Source of the DNA: Acidobacteriota bacterium
Lineage (GTDB): Bacteria > Acidobacteriota > Terriglobia > Terriglobales > SCQP01
Direction of reading: 5' to 3'
DNA length: 64,000 nucleotides
Assembly: GCA_004299485.1 (NCBI GenBank)
Contig: SCQP01000007.1
Location: 1-64,000 of the forward strand
This document shows positions 18,560 through 33,892 of this stretch, in pieces; within the stretch, counting starts at the first letter, position 1; every line of letters starts with the position of its first letter. A model generated the notes under the pieces. That model was not told the DNA's origin and made no database searches. It saw nothing but the letters and a program-made list of their open reading frames with translations. A program made the translations under genes and the position numbers.

Positions 18560-19380
18560 TGAAAAAGGCTCTCAGGTATCAGTTGTCAGTTTTCAGTGCG
18601 CTGCTGCTCGTCTCCGCAAGCGCGTACGCGGCGCCGGCCAGCCAACCGTGGCGCGTGCGCGCCCACGTCACCGTCCGCACCCCCGTGGTGCGGCTGGGCG
18701 AGCTGGTCGCGCCATCCAGCGCCATGCCGGCGCCGCTCGCCGCATACACTCTCGCCGCAGCGCCGCAGCCGGGCATCGCTTTGCGCTGGAGCCGCGCGCA
18801 GTTTTCCGCGCGCTTGCGCAGCGCCGGCATCGCGACCAGCCAGTTCGAGATTCCCTTACAGATTGAAGTGCAGCGCGCCTCCCAGCCCATTCCAGTCGCG
18901 CTCGTGCTGGAGGCGGTCGGCGTAGCGCTGCATCGCCCGCTCCTGGAAGCCGACATCAACTTTACCGCGCCGCTGACCACCGCCACCGCCCCCGCCGTCC
19001 ACGTCCTGCGGGCCGTACCCGACCGCCTGCATGGGCGCATCGAGGTGTTCTGCCGCGCCGAGCATGATCCCCTCCTGCTGCCCTTTCTGGTTTCCGTCCG
19101 CATGTCCGCGGCCGAGCGCGCCCAGCACGCACAATCCGTCTGGCCGCTGCACGCCCCGCCCGCCAAACCCATCCTGGTAAGGCCGGGCCGCACCGCACAA
19201 CTCACCATTGCCGCACCGGGCTTCGCGCTCACGACGCGGGTGCAGCCCTTACAGCCCGGCCGCCAAGGCGACCACATCCGCGTCCGCAGCCTGGCCACCA
19301 AGGCAATCCTGCAAGTGCGGGTCACCGGACGCGATCAGGTGAGTTCGCTGACGCAAGGAGATCTCCATGCCTGGCACTAG
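18556..19380 (+). CDS. flgA: P-ring assembly chaperone FlgA
   Basis: The 274-residue periplasmic protein has a signal peptide (MMKKALRYQLSVFSALLLVSASAYA) and the C-terminal SAF/ChapFlgA domain (about 200-270), with the pattern of LVRPGRTAQLTIAAPGFALTTRVQPLQPG and IRVRSLATKAILQVRVTG. It assists P-ring formation by FlgI. Bases 18573..18600 form a period-7 array (CAGTTNT type), so residues 7-15 of the signal peptide are encoded by tandem repeat. The end overlaps flgH by 14 bases. Confidence 0.85.
   Translation: MMKKALRYQLSVFSALLLVSASAYAAPASQPWRVRAHVTVRTPVVRLGELVAPSSAMPAPLAAYTLAAAPQPGIALRWSRAQFSARLRSAGIATSQFEIPLQIEVQRASQPIPVALVLEAVGVALHRPLLEADINFTAPLTTATAPAVHVLRAVPDRLHGRIEVFCRAEHDPLLLPFLVSVRMSAAERAQHAQSVWPLHAPPAKPILVRPGRTAQLTIAAPGFALTTRVQPLQPGRQGDHIRVRSLATKAILQVRVTGRDQVSSLTQGDLHAWH
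18573..18600. repeat. Period-7 tandem array (CAGTTNT type, 4 units) in the FlgA signal peptide
   Basis: Units are CAGGTAT, CAGTTGT, CAGTTTT and CAGTGCG. The same unit type occurs between genes at 53655..53689. It encodes the n-region/h-region junction of the FlgA signal peptide (RYQLSVFSA). Confidence 0.8.
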
Positions 19381-20092
19381 CCCCTGGCCCCTGGCCCCTG
19401 GCCGCTGGACCCCGCGCCTGCTCCTCGCCCTCGCCCTACTCCCTCTGGCGCTCTGCGCCCAGAAGAACCGCGGCCAGGCCCTGACCCCTGCCGAGCAGGC
19501 GCTCCAAACCTATCTCGCCCGCGTCCGCCAGGTCGAGGGCGCAACCTCGGCCACCACCGGCAGCCTCTGGACGCCCGAGGGCCGCTTCACCAATCTCTCC
19601 AGCGACTTCAAAGCGCAGCGCGTCAACGACCTGCTGACCATCCATATCGTCGAGGCCACCCAGGCCGCCGGCACCGGCACGGTGCAATCCAAGCGCGCCT
19701 TCACCGGCAACTCCGGCATCAGCATCTTCGGCAGCACCTCCAGCCGCCTGACCACGCTGCTGGCGCCCACCTCAACCACCGATCTTGAGGGCCAGGCTGC
19801 CACCGCCAGCTCCAGCGCCCTCTCCACCAGCCTCACTGGCCGCGTGGTCGACGTGCTGCCCAACGGCTTTCTCGTAGTCGAAGCCGTGCGTACCATTTCC
19901 ATGAACAACCAGCAGCAGACGGTGATCGTGCATGGCGTCGTACGCCCCGCCGACATCGCCCCCGACAACTCCGTCCTCTCCACCCAGGTCGGTGAGTTGG
20001 AAGTCGACCTGCTGGGCAAGGGCGTCATCAGCGACACCACCCGGCCCGTGACCGGCTGGTTGCGCATGCTGCTTAAATTCTTGACCTTCTAG
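19367..20092 (+). CDS. flgH: Flagellar L-ring protein FlgH
   Basis: The product has 241 residues. The core has typical FlgH features: SLWTPEGRFTNLSSDFKAQRVNDLLTI, VEATQAAGTG, and the C-terminal GVVRPADIAPDNSVLSTQVGELEVDLLGKG block. The N-terminus carries a hydrophobic signal segment (LLLALALLPLALCAQ) with C at about residue 26 as a possible lipobox cysteine; most FlgH are lipoproteins. Residues 5-14 (SPWPLAPGRW) are encoded by a four-unit period-7 array. It forms the outer-membrane L ring around the rod. It overlaps flgA by 14 bases and is followed by flgI after 5 bases. Confidence 0.93.
   Translation: MPGTSPWPLAPGRWTPRLLLALALLPLALCAQKNRGQALTPAEQALQTYLARVRQVEGATSATTGSLWTPEGRFTNLSSDFKAQRVNDLLTIHIVEATQAAGTGTVQSKRAFTGNSGISIFGSTSSRLTTLLAPTSTTDLEGQAATASSSALSTSLTGRVVDVLPNGFLVVEAVRTISMNNQQQTVIVHGVVRPADIAPDNSVLSTQVGELEVDLLGKGVISDTTRPVTGWLRMLLKFLTF
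19381..19408. repeat. Period-7 tandem array (CCCCTGG, 4 units) in flgH
   Basis: Three exact CCCCTGG units plus CCGCTGG begin right after the flgA stop codon. They encode residues 6-14 of the FlgH signal peptide n-region. Confidence 0.85.
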
Positions 20093-25423: not shown

Positions 25424-26162
25424 GACACGCAAGCGCGCAGCGGCCGAGCAGTACGCCCAGTGTGCCGCCGACCAGAACATCCGACGGAAAGTGCTCCTTG
25501 CCCGTTACGCGCGCGACGCCAATGCTGCCCGCGAGCAAATAACCGAATCGATTAGCCCAAGTGGCCTGGGGATCATGCTGCGCCAGTAACGCGGCGAGCG
25601 AAAACGCACCGATCGCATGGCCGGAGGGAAACGACGTGCCCCCCTCATTGAAGCCGCCATCGCCGTCTCCTGCCGTAAACGGCCGCTCGCGTCCCGCGCT
25701 GTATTTGAGTACCTGCACCACCGCGGTCGCGTAGCCTTCGGTGGTGATCGCCGTAAGCGCAAACTTGCCGGTAGATGGGCAAAACAGGCAATGATCCTCG
25801 ATCGCCGCCGTGGTCAGCGCAAACGCAGGCTCGATCACCAGCAAGCCCCGGTTCGACCAGTTCCGGCTTGCCCTCTCCAGCCCCGGCGATTGAATCTGAT
25901 CAGATATCCGCGTGTCGCCAAACAGAATCAGCGCTCCCGCCACAGCTACCACCGGCACGGTGACACGCCAATTCCGCACCGCCGCCCCCGGGAACTGCGT
26001 GGTGCCATGCCAAAGCCTCGCAACTGTCCCGCCGATAATGCCCCACGGCGTGCTGGCGCGAGCTGCCGGCGCCAGCAGCAACAGCACTAGGAGAACGGCG
26101 AACGCGCGCTGGCCCCTGGCTCCTGGCCCCAGGCCCCTGACCCCTGGCCCCTGACCCCTCAC
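25413..26162 (-). CDS. PAP2-family membrane phosphatase
   Basis: The product has 249 residues from a GTG that overlaps the stop of the zinc-ribbon gene (GTGA); longer starts lie inside that gene and are rejected. The three PAP2 motifs are present: KYSAGRERP (K-x6-RP), SFPSGHAIG (PSGH) and ARVTGKEHFPSD (R-x5-H-x3-D). An N-terminal signal/anchor (FAVLLVLLLLAP) and several hydrophobic helices place the active site at the periplasmic face. Family members hydrolyse lipid pyrophosphates such as undecaprenyl diphosphate or phosphatidic acid. Residues 2-17 (rich in Gly, Arg, Pro) are encoded by a seven-unit period-7 array. Confidence 0.85.
   Translation of the reverse strand: MRGQGPGVRGLGPGARGQRAFAVLLVLLLLAPAARASTPWGIIGGTVARLWHGTTQFPGAAVRNWRVTVPVVAVAGALILFGDTRISDQIQSPGLERASRNWSNRGLLVIEPAFALTTAAIEDHCLFCPSTGKFALTAITTEGYATAVVQVLKYSAGRERPFTAGDGDGGFNEGGTSFPSGHAIGAFSLAALLAQHDPQATWANRFGYLLAGSIGVARVTGKEHFPSDVLVGGTLGVLLGRCALACPKN
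26111..26159. repeat. Period-7 tandem array (GGCCCCT type, 7 units) in the PAP2 signal region
   Basis: Units are GGCCCCT, GGCTCCT, GGCCCCA, GGCCCCT, GACCCCT, GGCCCCT and GACCCCT. The array ends exactly at the GTG start codon of the PAP2 gene (minus strand), so it encodes residues 2-17. Confidence 0.88.
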
Positions 26163-31286: not shown

Positions 31287-32840
31287 TTACTTTGGGCGGG
31301 AGCCTTCGGCGGGAACAAAAACGTACTCCGCATTTTGGCGCTCCACATAGCCCCAGGCCTGCTCCGGATCGTGCGTGAACACCAGCAGCCAATGCTCGCG
31401 TTCGGCCTGGTCCAGAATGCGATGTTTATTGTCAATGGTCTCCAGCGGAAACAAATCAAAGGCCATCACCCAACTCGGCTTCAGGTGCCAATGCGTCGGC
31501 ATCAGATCGGAGATGTAGCAGGCCACCTCGTTTCCCGAGCGCAGCAGAATGGCTTGCATGCCCCGCGTATGGCCGGGAAGCGGCATCACCGACAGCCCCG
31601 GCAGCAGCTCCCGCTCGCCCTCGAGCAACTGCATTTGTCCGGAGGTGACCAGCGGATCGTAGTTCTCCGTCAGGTAGCTGACGCGGTCGCGCTCATGCTG
31701 CTCGCGCGCATGCTCCCACTCCTTCCGCTGCACATAGTAGTGAGCATTCGGAAATACAGGCACGATGCTTCCATCCGGACGGCGTACAGTGTTCCAACCG
31801 CAATGATCGTAGTGCAGATGCGAGTTGACGACCAGCGTGAACTCTTCCGCTGGAAATCCCGCCGCGGCCAGTCGCTCCAAATAGTCCCGCCGCGGATCAA
31901 CCCCGTTGTAGCGCATCTGCTTATCGTTGAGCTTATTCCCGCACCCCGTCTCAACCAGCACCAGCTCGCCACGATGGCGGAAGACCAGCGAGTTCAACCC
32001 GCAGCGCACATAATTCCGCTCATCGCTCGGCGTCGTGCGGCTCCATAACGTCTTCGGCACCACGCCAAACATCGCCCCGCCATCGAGCAGGTAGCTCCGG
32101 TCGGTAATGACCGACAGCTCCGTATCCCCAAGCTTTCTGACAAACGGCCCCGTCCACTCACCGTTCCCCATTTCCCTCTTCCCTTTTCCCTCTTCCCTTT
32201 TCCCTCTTCCCTTTTCCCTCTTCCCTTTTCCCTCTTCCCTTTTCCCTCTTCCCTCATGTTCCCCCCGCAACCGATGCCACGCCACCCAGATCAGCACGAT
32301 GGCGACCACCAGAATAACCAAATCCACGCGGCCCAGAACATGGAGCAGCCGCCGCCACTGACTGCCCAGCAGCGCTCCTAGACTCGCAATCGCGGATACC
32401 CAGAGGATAGCGCCGCAAAAATCAAAAAAAACAAACCTCTGCCAGTGCATGTGGCCGAGACCCGCCAAAATTCCGGCAAAGATGCGCAGACCGGTGACGA
32501 AGCGGGCAAACAGGATGGTGGTGGCGCCGTGATGCTGAAAGTAGATCGAGTAGCGCTGGTAGTGGTGGGATTTGATCGGAAACGTGCGCAGCACCCAGTT
32601 GTGGGCGTAGCGGCCAACGAAGTAGCCGGTCACCTGGCCGAGCGAGCTGCCCGCGACGCCTACGGCAATCAGCGCGAGCAGGCTGAAGCCGCCGTAGACG
32701 CGCAGATGAAAGCCGGCGTAGAGCAGCGAGAGTTCGCCCGGCAGCGGCAGGCCGAAGTTCTCCAGCAACAGCAGCAGAAACACCGCCAGTAGCCCGTAAT
32801 GCTGGAAGAATTCGCGGAAATAGACGAAGGCGGTGTGCAT
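31287..32840 (-). CDS. DedA-type membrane protein fused to a metallo-beta-lactamase-fold hydrolase
   Basis: The product has 517 residues from the ATG at 32840 (MHTAFVYFREFFQHYG). Residues 1-190 are a complete DedA/SNARE-associated-type unit: ENFGLPLPGEL motif, GSSLGQVTGYFVGRY, FARFVTGLRIFAGILAG and a last helix ending near 188. Residues 196-223 are a Lys/Arg/Glu/Gly stretch encoded by a twelve-unit period-7 array. Residues about 230-517 are an MBL-fold hydrolase of the lactonase-like type, with NSHLHYDHCGW (H341, H343, D345, H346), later metal ligands in PLPGHTRG and SDLMPTHWH. DedA proteins act on lipid carriers or proton balance; MBL hydrolases act on lactones or thioesters. Whether the fusion works as one protein, or is processed or separately initiated, cannot be seen. 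Confidence 0.8.
   Translation of the reverse strand: MHTAFVYFREFFQHYGLLAVFLLLLLENFGLPLPGELSLLYAGFHLRVYGGFSLLALIAVGVAGSSLGQVTGYFVGRYAHNWVLRTFPIKSHHYQRYSIYFQHHGATTILFARFVTGLRIFAGILAGLGHMHWQRFVFFDFCGAILWVSAIASLGALLGSQWRRLLHVLGRVDLVILVVAIVLIWVAWHRLRGEHEGRGKREEGKGKREKGRGKREEGKGKREMGNGEWTGPFVRKLGDTELSVITDRSYLLDGGAMFGVVPKTLWSRTTPSDERNYVRCGLNSLVFRHRGELVLVETGCGNKLNDKQMRYNGVDPRRDYLERLAAAGFPAEEFTLVVNSHLHYDHCGWNTVRRPDGSIVPVFPNAHYYVQRKEWEHAREQHERDRVSYLTENYDPLVTSGQMQLLEGERELLPGLSVMPLPGHTRGMQAILLRSGNEVACYISDLMPTHWHLKPSWVMAFDLFPLETIDNKHRILDQAEREHWLLVFTHDPEQAWGYVERQNAEYVFVPAEGSRPK
32171..32254. repeat. Twelve-unit period-7 array joining two coding domains
   Basis: TTTCCCT and CTTCCCT alternate perfectly for 12 units, 84 bases, which is 28 codons, so the reading frame is kept. 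On the minus strand it encodes REEGKGKREKGRGK-like residues 196-223 of the DedA-MBL protein. A change of one or two units would break the frame, so the array is a potential on/off switch for the downstream MBL part. Confidence 0.95.
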
Positions 32841-32842
32841 CG

Positions 32843-33892
32843 CTATCCCATCCGGATACGCCCCAGTGGCGGCAGCTCGGAGGAGCCCGGAGCGCCGGCG
32901 GGCGGACCCTGCCGGGAATCGAAGCCCGCACTCCAAGCGACCAACGGGAGCGACCCGGACAAAAAGTGGCGAGCCACCCGCACAAACGTTTCCGGCTCTT
33001 CGACAAACGGCAGGTGGCCAACTCCGGCCAGAACTTCCAGCTCCACGTGGGGCATGGCCGCCGCCAGCGCCGCCGCCGTGGCCACCGGCACCACCGGATC
33101 GCGGTCGCCCCAGACCAGCAGCGCCGGGGTCTGCATCTGCGGCAGCGCGGCCTCGAGCGCCAGCCGCTGGGCGCGAAAGTGGCGCGCCAGCCCGGCAATC
33201 GCCGCTCCCAGATGCGGCTGCCGCAAGGTGGCGCCATATTCGGCGATGCTCTCCAGCGGCAGGCGCGCCGGATCACCGTAGATGCGCTCCAGCAGCGCCC
33301 GGTGGATCTGCGGCGAGCAGCGGGCGCCCAGCCACGCCCCCACGCGCGCCTGCACGGGGCGCAGCATGAAGCGCTGGGCGCGGCTCGGATTCCAAAGCGG
33401 ATGCGCCGGCGCTGCCAGCACCAGTCGCTCCACGCGCGCCGCCAGTGGCGAGCGCGCGGCAAAATCCAGCGCCACCGCCCCGCCCCAGGACGAGCCCATG
33501 AGCGTAAACCGCTCACCCAGCGGCAGCGCGCCGCAGGCGGCTTCCAGCCATGCGGTCAACCCCTGCAGCGACAGATCGCGGGGCCGCGCCGACGCGCCTA
33601 TGCCCGGCAGCTCCAGCGCCCAACAGCGGTATTCCGGCGCTAGCAGCGAGGCGCATGCGGCCCACTGTGAACTCGTCCCCAGCAGGCCGTGCAGCATGAC
33701 GACATCGCAAATTCTACTGCTCGCCCCTCCGCTTGGCGCCGGAGACGAGGGCGAGCCGACCATCGGGGTGAACGACGCACGTGCGTCGTTCACCGGGGCG
33801 ACGCCCCGGTGAAAGGCGGCGGGAGCCGCGCCCCAGCAGCGATAGCGCAGTGCGCCCCACGGAAGCTGCGTCTCGAGCAGACTGTCCGCCAC
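32843..33892 (-). CDS. Alpha/beta hydrolase with repeat-encoded N-terminal insert and C-terminal tail
   Basis: The 349-residue protein has the alpha/beta-hydrolase core: oxyanion HGLLG (68-72), the nucleophile elbow GSSWG (S135), the acid in VWGDRDPVVP and the histidine in GVGHLPFVEEP. The substrate is unknown. Between an initial strand (LPWGALRYRCWG) and the HGLLG motif, residues about 28-42 (RGVAPVNDARASFTP) are encoded by two adjacent palindromes (33767..33810). The last 40 residues (from about GSLPLVAWSAG) come from repeat DNA shared with 59283..59317. The conserved catalytic parts are uninterrupted. It is in a minus-strand unit with tsaD, DUF2071 and the DedA-MBL gene, 2-6 bases apart. 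Confidence 0.8.
   Translation of the reverse strand: MADSLLETQLPWGALRYRCWGAAPAAFHRGVAPVNDARASFTPMVGSPSSPAPSGGASSRICDVVMLHGLLGTSSQWAACASLLAPEYRCWALELPGIGASARPRDLSLQGLTAWLEAACGALPLGERFTLMGSSWGGAVALDFAARSPLAARVERLVLAAPAHPLWNPSRAQRFMLRPVQARVGAWLGARCSPQIHRALLERIYGDPARLPLESIAEYGATLRQPHLGAAIAGLARHFRAQRLALEAALPQMQTPALLVWGDRDPVVPVATAAALAAAMPHVELEVLAGVGHLPFVEEPETFVRVARHFLSGSLPLVAWSAGFDSRQGPPAGAPGSSELPPLGRIRMG
32936..32980. repeat. Dispersed repeat family D, copy 1 (hydrolase tail)
   Basis: A block of about 34 bases starting CGGGAGCGACCCGGACAAAA and ending GTGGCGAGCCACC matches, in reverse complement, 59284..59317 at 32 of 34 positions. The 5' part CGACCAACGGGAG is shared with family C copy 1. Here it is coding (minus strand). 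Confidence 0.75.
33767..33810. repeat. Two abutting palindromes inside the hydrolase gene
   Basis: A perfect 28-base palindrome with half-site GTGCGTCGTTCACC (33781..33794) is centred at 33780/33781. It overlaps a 19-base hairpin ACCGGGGCG-a-CGCCCCGGT (33792..33810). The unit encodes residues 28-42 of the hydrolase on the minus strand. Confidence 0.9.

Follow-up and report, generated by a model that had tools for sequence, protein, structure and literature searches.

Within the 64,000-nt stretch of soil acidobacterial DNA analysed here (the window), one minus-strand reading frame of 517 codons, from an ATG at 32840 to a stop at 31287, encodes a DedA/VTT domain, a heptamer array and a metallo-beta-lactamase (MBL)-fold hydrolase. 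The open reading frame as listed spans 31287-32936 on the minus strand, and we took the ATG at 32840 as its likely start. The frame has three parts:

32256..32840, minus strand: dedA half (VTT domain, UptA-like DedA family; PF09335), which enters the array without a stop
32172..32255, minus strand: GGGAARA heptamer array of 12 units, arranged as six GGGAAGAGGGAAAA dimers with 12 G-tracts
31287..32171, minus strand: MBL-fold hydrolase, YtnP/lactonase-like, with HLHYDH, PGHT, SDL and THD motifs (PF00753, YtnP and 3esh matches)

The original prediction held that complete DedA and MBL-fold halves are joined by a 12-unit heptamer array. This was confirmed, with the array placed at 32172-32255 and the minus strand now specified. 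The dedA half matched PF09335 (VTT) with an E-value of 5e-14 and 53.2 bits, above the gathering cut-off of 33.9, and the MBL half matched PF00753 (Lactamase_B) with an E-value of 3e-12 and 47.5 bits, above the cut-off of 22.7. Its PF00753 gathering score and HxHxDH motif place the MBL half in the metallo-beta-lactamase superfamily. The half is complete, its metal motifs are present, its HLHYDH motif is invariant in an alignment with family relatives, and it matched PDB entry 3esh (E 2e-36). The dedA half is 43-52% identical to relatives, and the MBL half is 69-73% identical to family relatives.

Narrower functional assignments were not supported. YtnP lactonases are the closest family to the MBL half, but its score against the NCBIfam YtnP model NF047919 (194.5 bits) falls far below the equivalog cut-off of 425, so we do not call it a YtnP quorum-quenching lactonase. 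The dedA half resembles UptA/DedA transporters, but its scores against the NCBIfam UptA equivalog models (66 bits against a cut-off of 300, and 65 against 250) are likewise far too low for it to be called an undecaprenyl phosphate transporter.

To place the frame in context, we compared the arrangement of the two genes in relatives. Eight of 13 family relatives, all four same-genus genomes among them, have dedA and the MBL gene side by side as separate genes in different frames, as the original prediction anticipated. The two genes overlap by exactly ATGA in G001, G003, G006 and G013, by 8 bases in G004, by 11 in G009 and by 37 in G002, and they are separated by a gap of 10 bases in G007. In G005, G008, G010 and G012 the MBL gene has no adjoining dedA match. 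Among 247 phylum genomes (140 with a query match), the only match spanning DedA and MBL was the window's own. Distant homologues fused through a non-repetitive linker, which would have spoken against a fusion made by the array, were likewise absent from these 247 genomes. Family relatives and the 247 phylum genomes thus do not provide the fusion in several genomes that would mark an established DedA-MBL family, and a literature search for a described DedA-MBL fusion returned nothing relevant. Because relatives keep separate genes and the phylum genomes contain no fusion, these comparisons indicate that the fused frame is a derived condition associated with the array, as the original prediction proposed. 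Its intergenic gap is not borne out: before the array, the two genes mostly overlapped by a few bases.

The coding-strand sequence of the junction is CGGTTGCGGGGGGAACATGAGGGAAGAGGG. Four elements within it or close by bear on how the boundary was lost and where the MBL gene begins:

32261..32266, minus strand: G6 run just 5' of the out-of-frame ATGA, read from the sequence
32254..32257, minus strand: what remains of an ATGA, at the edge of the array, counterpart of the 4-bp overlap of start and stop in relatives, with its TGA one base off the dedA frame
32169..32171, minus strand: ATG that is probably the MBL gene's own start, immediately 3' of the array, with a purine-rich SD-like sequence upstream and supported by alignment with relatives
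32158..32160, minus strand: TGA that would end dedA in the +1-unit phase, 14 nt into the MBL gene

The ATGA remnant argues against removal of the stop by array growth alone, since a TGA persists at the ancestral position, one base out of frame. Adding one base to the G6 run puts this TGA in the dedA frame at the position found in relatives. The dedA stop was thus lost through a small frame change beside the array, unless that change is itself an error in the sequence.

We next considered the array itself. It was measured as 12.0 copies of 7 bp or 6.3 copies of 14 bp (98% match, score 169). The expanded unit is a 14-bp dimer, GGGAAGAGGGAAAA, in six copies; 14, like 7, is no multiple of three, so the earlier statement about unit length holds for the refined unit. 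All 12 units are stop-free in every frame of the minus strand. Shuffled sequence yielded no period-7 arrays, and the GGGAARA repeat has 44 overlapping matches genome-wide while the same repeat read backwards has zero; these two controls reject chance as the origin of the array. The 12 G-tracts are potential G-quadruplexes, and switching on quadruplex energies stabilises the predicted fold by about 22-25 kcal/mol. By this prediction the tracts could also form RNA quadruplexes and so slow ribosomes.

The repeat is not confined to this junction. The 3.3-Mb genome has GGGAARA arrays at ~18 sites, whereas 30 relatives have none, and it carries further scattered heptamers (CAGTTNN, CAGGGGN, AGCYATC and AGTGGYT). 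CAGTTNN arrays are present in 10 of 31 genomes. We observed many CAGTTCT heptamer arrays in the same-order genome G020 (C23:368520-368626), which suggests that different relatives expanded different heptamers. Arrays were found with Tandem Repeats Finder, as exact-match period counts proved too strict and showed little. Array location statistics come from 464 kb of sampled sequence, supplemented by stretches chosen for their GGGAARA sites, with genes called by a simple codon-score script that leaves start-side distances soft. In the 464-kb sample, 4 of 22 arrays lay wholly within predicted ORFs, against 84% coding DNA (P 2e-11). Of 27 co-directional junctions, about 19 had an array that started no more than 6 bp from the upstream stop, in either orientation. 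The hallmarks of a multi-locus heptamer array – a 7-bp unit at many sites, a bias towards non-coding junctions and proximity to stop codons – were thus found here.

Genes with a heptamer array inside or next to them are of all kinds (NuoG, DnaX, LpxI, FabA-like and BshC), and arrays inside proteins occupy linkers or loops (DnaX, NuoG, PP2C and BioBF), filling variable linkers in BioBF and NuoG and a loop in PP2C. A GGGAAGA array in antisense orientation at L070 (3263-3314) encodes a Phe/Pro/Ser/Leu insert in a loop of a PP2C domain; the corresponding loop of L128, the only relative found, is shorter and non-repetitive. L060 (2566-5335) has a DHDPS-family gene, bshC and a DUF7405 gene with GGGAARA arrays of about 28, 13 and 7 units at consecutive junctions around them; the array of 13 units forms the C-terminal tail of the DHDPS-family protein. 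Elsewhere in the window, a GCCCCTG array (19380-19412) overlaps both the flgH N-terminus and the end of a gene for a FlgA-like chaperone, and a seven-unit CTGGCCC array (26109-26159) lies just 5' of the start predicted for a gene that was assigned by eye as PAP2-like. In L072 (1911-4055, minus strand) BioB and BioF form a single fused ORF with a short heptamer array in the linker. We considered this as a second array-made fusion and rejected it: the four same-genus genomes all have BioB-BioF fused, as do two further family members, and because the same-genus fusions have an ordinary linker, the fusion is older than the array.

We then asked what a change in unit number would do at the dedA/MBL junction. 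Starting at the ATG at 32171 gives M-GNG-EWTGP, which aligns with M-x(2-8)-EWTGP of relatives. Its anti-SD duplex is modest (-6.3 kcal/mol) and the spacing of 12 nt is long. As this ATG lies 3' of the array, it keeps the MBL frame whatever the unit number. The MBL gene is probably also translated from it. Frame computation gave three outcomes: the present length yields the 517-residue fusion; one more unit yields a dedA product of 229 residues that stops 14 nt inside the MBL gene; and one unit fewer yields an out-of-frame product of 279 residues that stops 178 nt inside it. By the anatomy of this start, gain or loss of a unit would alter the DedA C-terminus and would not turn MBL on or off. 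The original prediction of a phase-variable switch for the MBL half is thus not upheld.

Comparison with known systems places the repeat. G-rich heptamers of Xanthomonas and Nostoc (GGGNATC and GGGGA(C/T)T) form arrays of 2-26 units at many loci with a G-tract in each unit, lie between aligned ORFs near or overlapping stop codons, and are rarer in coding sequence (PMC4692102). GGGAARA arrays share this location pattern and the G-tract 7-bp unit, but the unit differs, was found in 1 of 31 genomes searched, and in one case reads into the following gene; PMC4692102 uses neither "fusion" nor "in-frame". The G-rich subtype of heptamers has four or more G-tracts and forms G-quadruplexes in vitro (PMC4692102), and the present array fits the tract number by sequence and is a candidate quadruplex former by fold prediction. 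TAACTGA heptamers of Beggiatoaceae, Cyanobacteria and others are also multi-locus, near gene starts and overlapping upstream stops (PMC4679880), and their reverse complement resembles the CAGTTNN arrays of this genome. TAACTGA carries stops in all forward frames and so is unable to fuse genes in forward orientation, whereas GGGAARA carries none. In Cj0031 of Campylobacter jejuni a repeat tract lies within one gene and its switching was measured (PMC4889913). Repeat length sets the reading frame in both cases, but the present junction involves two genes and a downstream start, and its frame effects are computed from sequence.

We consider it reasonably likely that the array belongs to a genome-wide repeat, sits at the dedA/MBL junction with neutral or mildly regulatory effect, and creates a formal fusion frame while MBL is made mainly from its own start. 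The GGGAARA array lies at the two-gene junction, beginning at the dedA stop as such arrays usually do. With that stop now one base out of frame and the units free of stops in any frame, dedA reads on, and the present length brings it into the MBL frame. MBL would be made mainly from the ATG at 32171, with purine-rich array sequence serving as ribosome-binding site, and some read-through would give a DedA-array-MBL fusion with a charged linker. Changes in unit number would then alter the DedA end alone, giving the fusion, termination 14 nt inside the MBL gene, or an out-of-frame tail that runs 178 nt into it.

Other readings share parts of this evidence. The fusion might be real and the working form, its array encoding a linker of Lys, Arg, Glu and Gly by which DedA holds the hydrolase at the membrane. 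A single open 517-codon frame with both domains complete and the fact that other proteins encoded here tolerate arrays as part of their linkers are consistent with such a protein, but its absence from family relatives and the 247 phylum genomes, the aligned start retained by MBL, and the one-in-three chance that a stop-free array gives an in-frame joint make it unlikely. The 12-unit length with its in-frame joint could nonetheless have been selected rather than reflect that chance. A sequence error might also give two normal genes the appearance of a fusion, through a base missing from the G6 run or a wrong unit count. In its favour, an extra G at 32261-32266 puts a TGA in the dedA frame at the relatives' ATGA position, and assemblies easily miscount repeats. 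Against it, no frameshift was found in the 44 kb of genome covered by relatives' proteins, and we regard such an error as improbable.

A phase-variable switch, with unit slippage toggling the MBL half or the fusion, draws on unit lengths of 7 and 14 that are no multiples of three, near-perfect dimers that suggest recent expansion, and the three computed frame outcomes. Against it stand the ATG at 32171, which stays in frame 3' of the array, the occurrence of heptamer arrays in and beside genes of all kinds, and the judgement of the authors of PMC4692102 that comparable arrays are unlikely to phase-vary. We hold such a switch to be very doubtful; phase variation of the array in general appears unlikely, and a neutral or mildly regulatory role is the most likely one, in preference to that of a switch under selection. 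Equally doubtful is a three-state junction at which unit number sets DedA as fused, ended in a coupled overlap or array-tailed, so that the enzyme's membrane tethering, and not its presence, would vary between cells.

The repeat at this locus is an ordinary member of a known heptamer class; what is unusual is the read-through into the next gene. A non-triplet repeat in an open frame is not automatically a phase-variable switch: where the second gene has its own start codon downstream of the repeat, the number of units may have no bearing on that gene. Heptamer arrays that contain no stops and settle at stop codons can dissolve the border between two genes while supplying a ready-made linker, and sequence data alone suffice to test this path to gene fusion.
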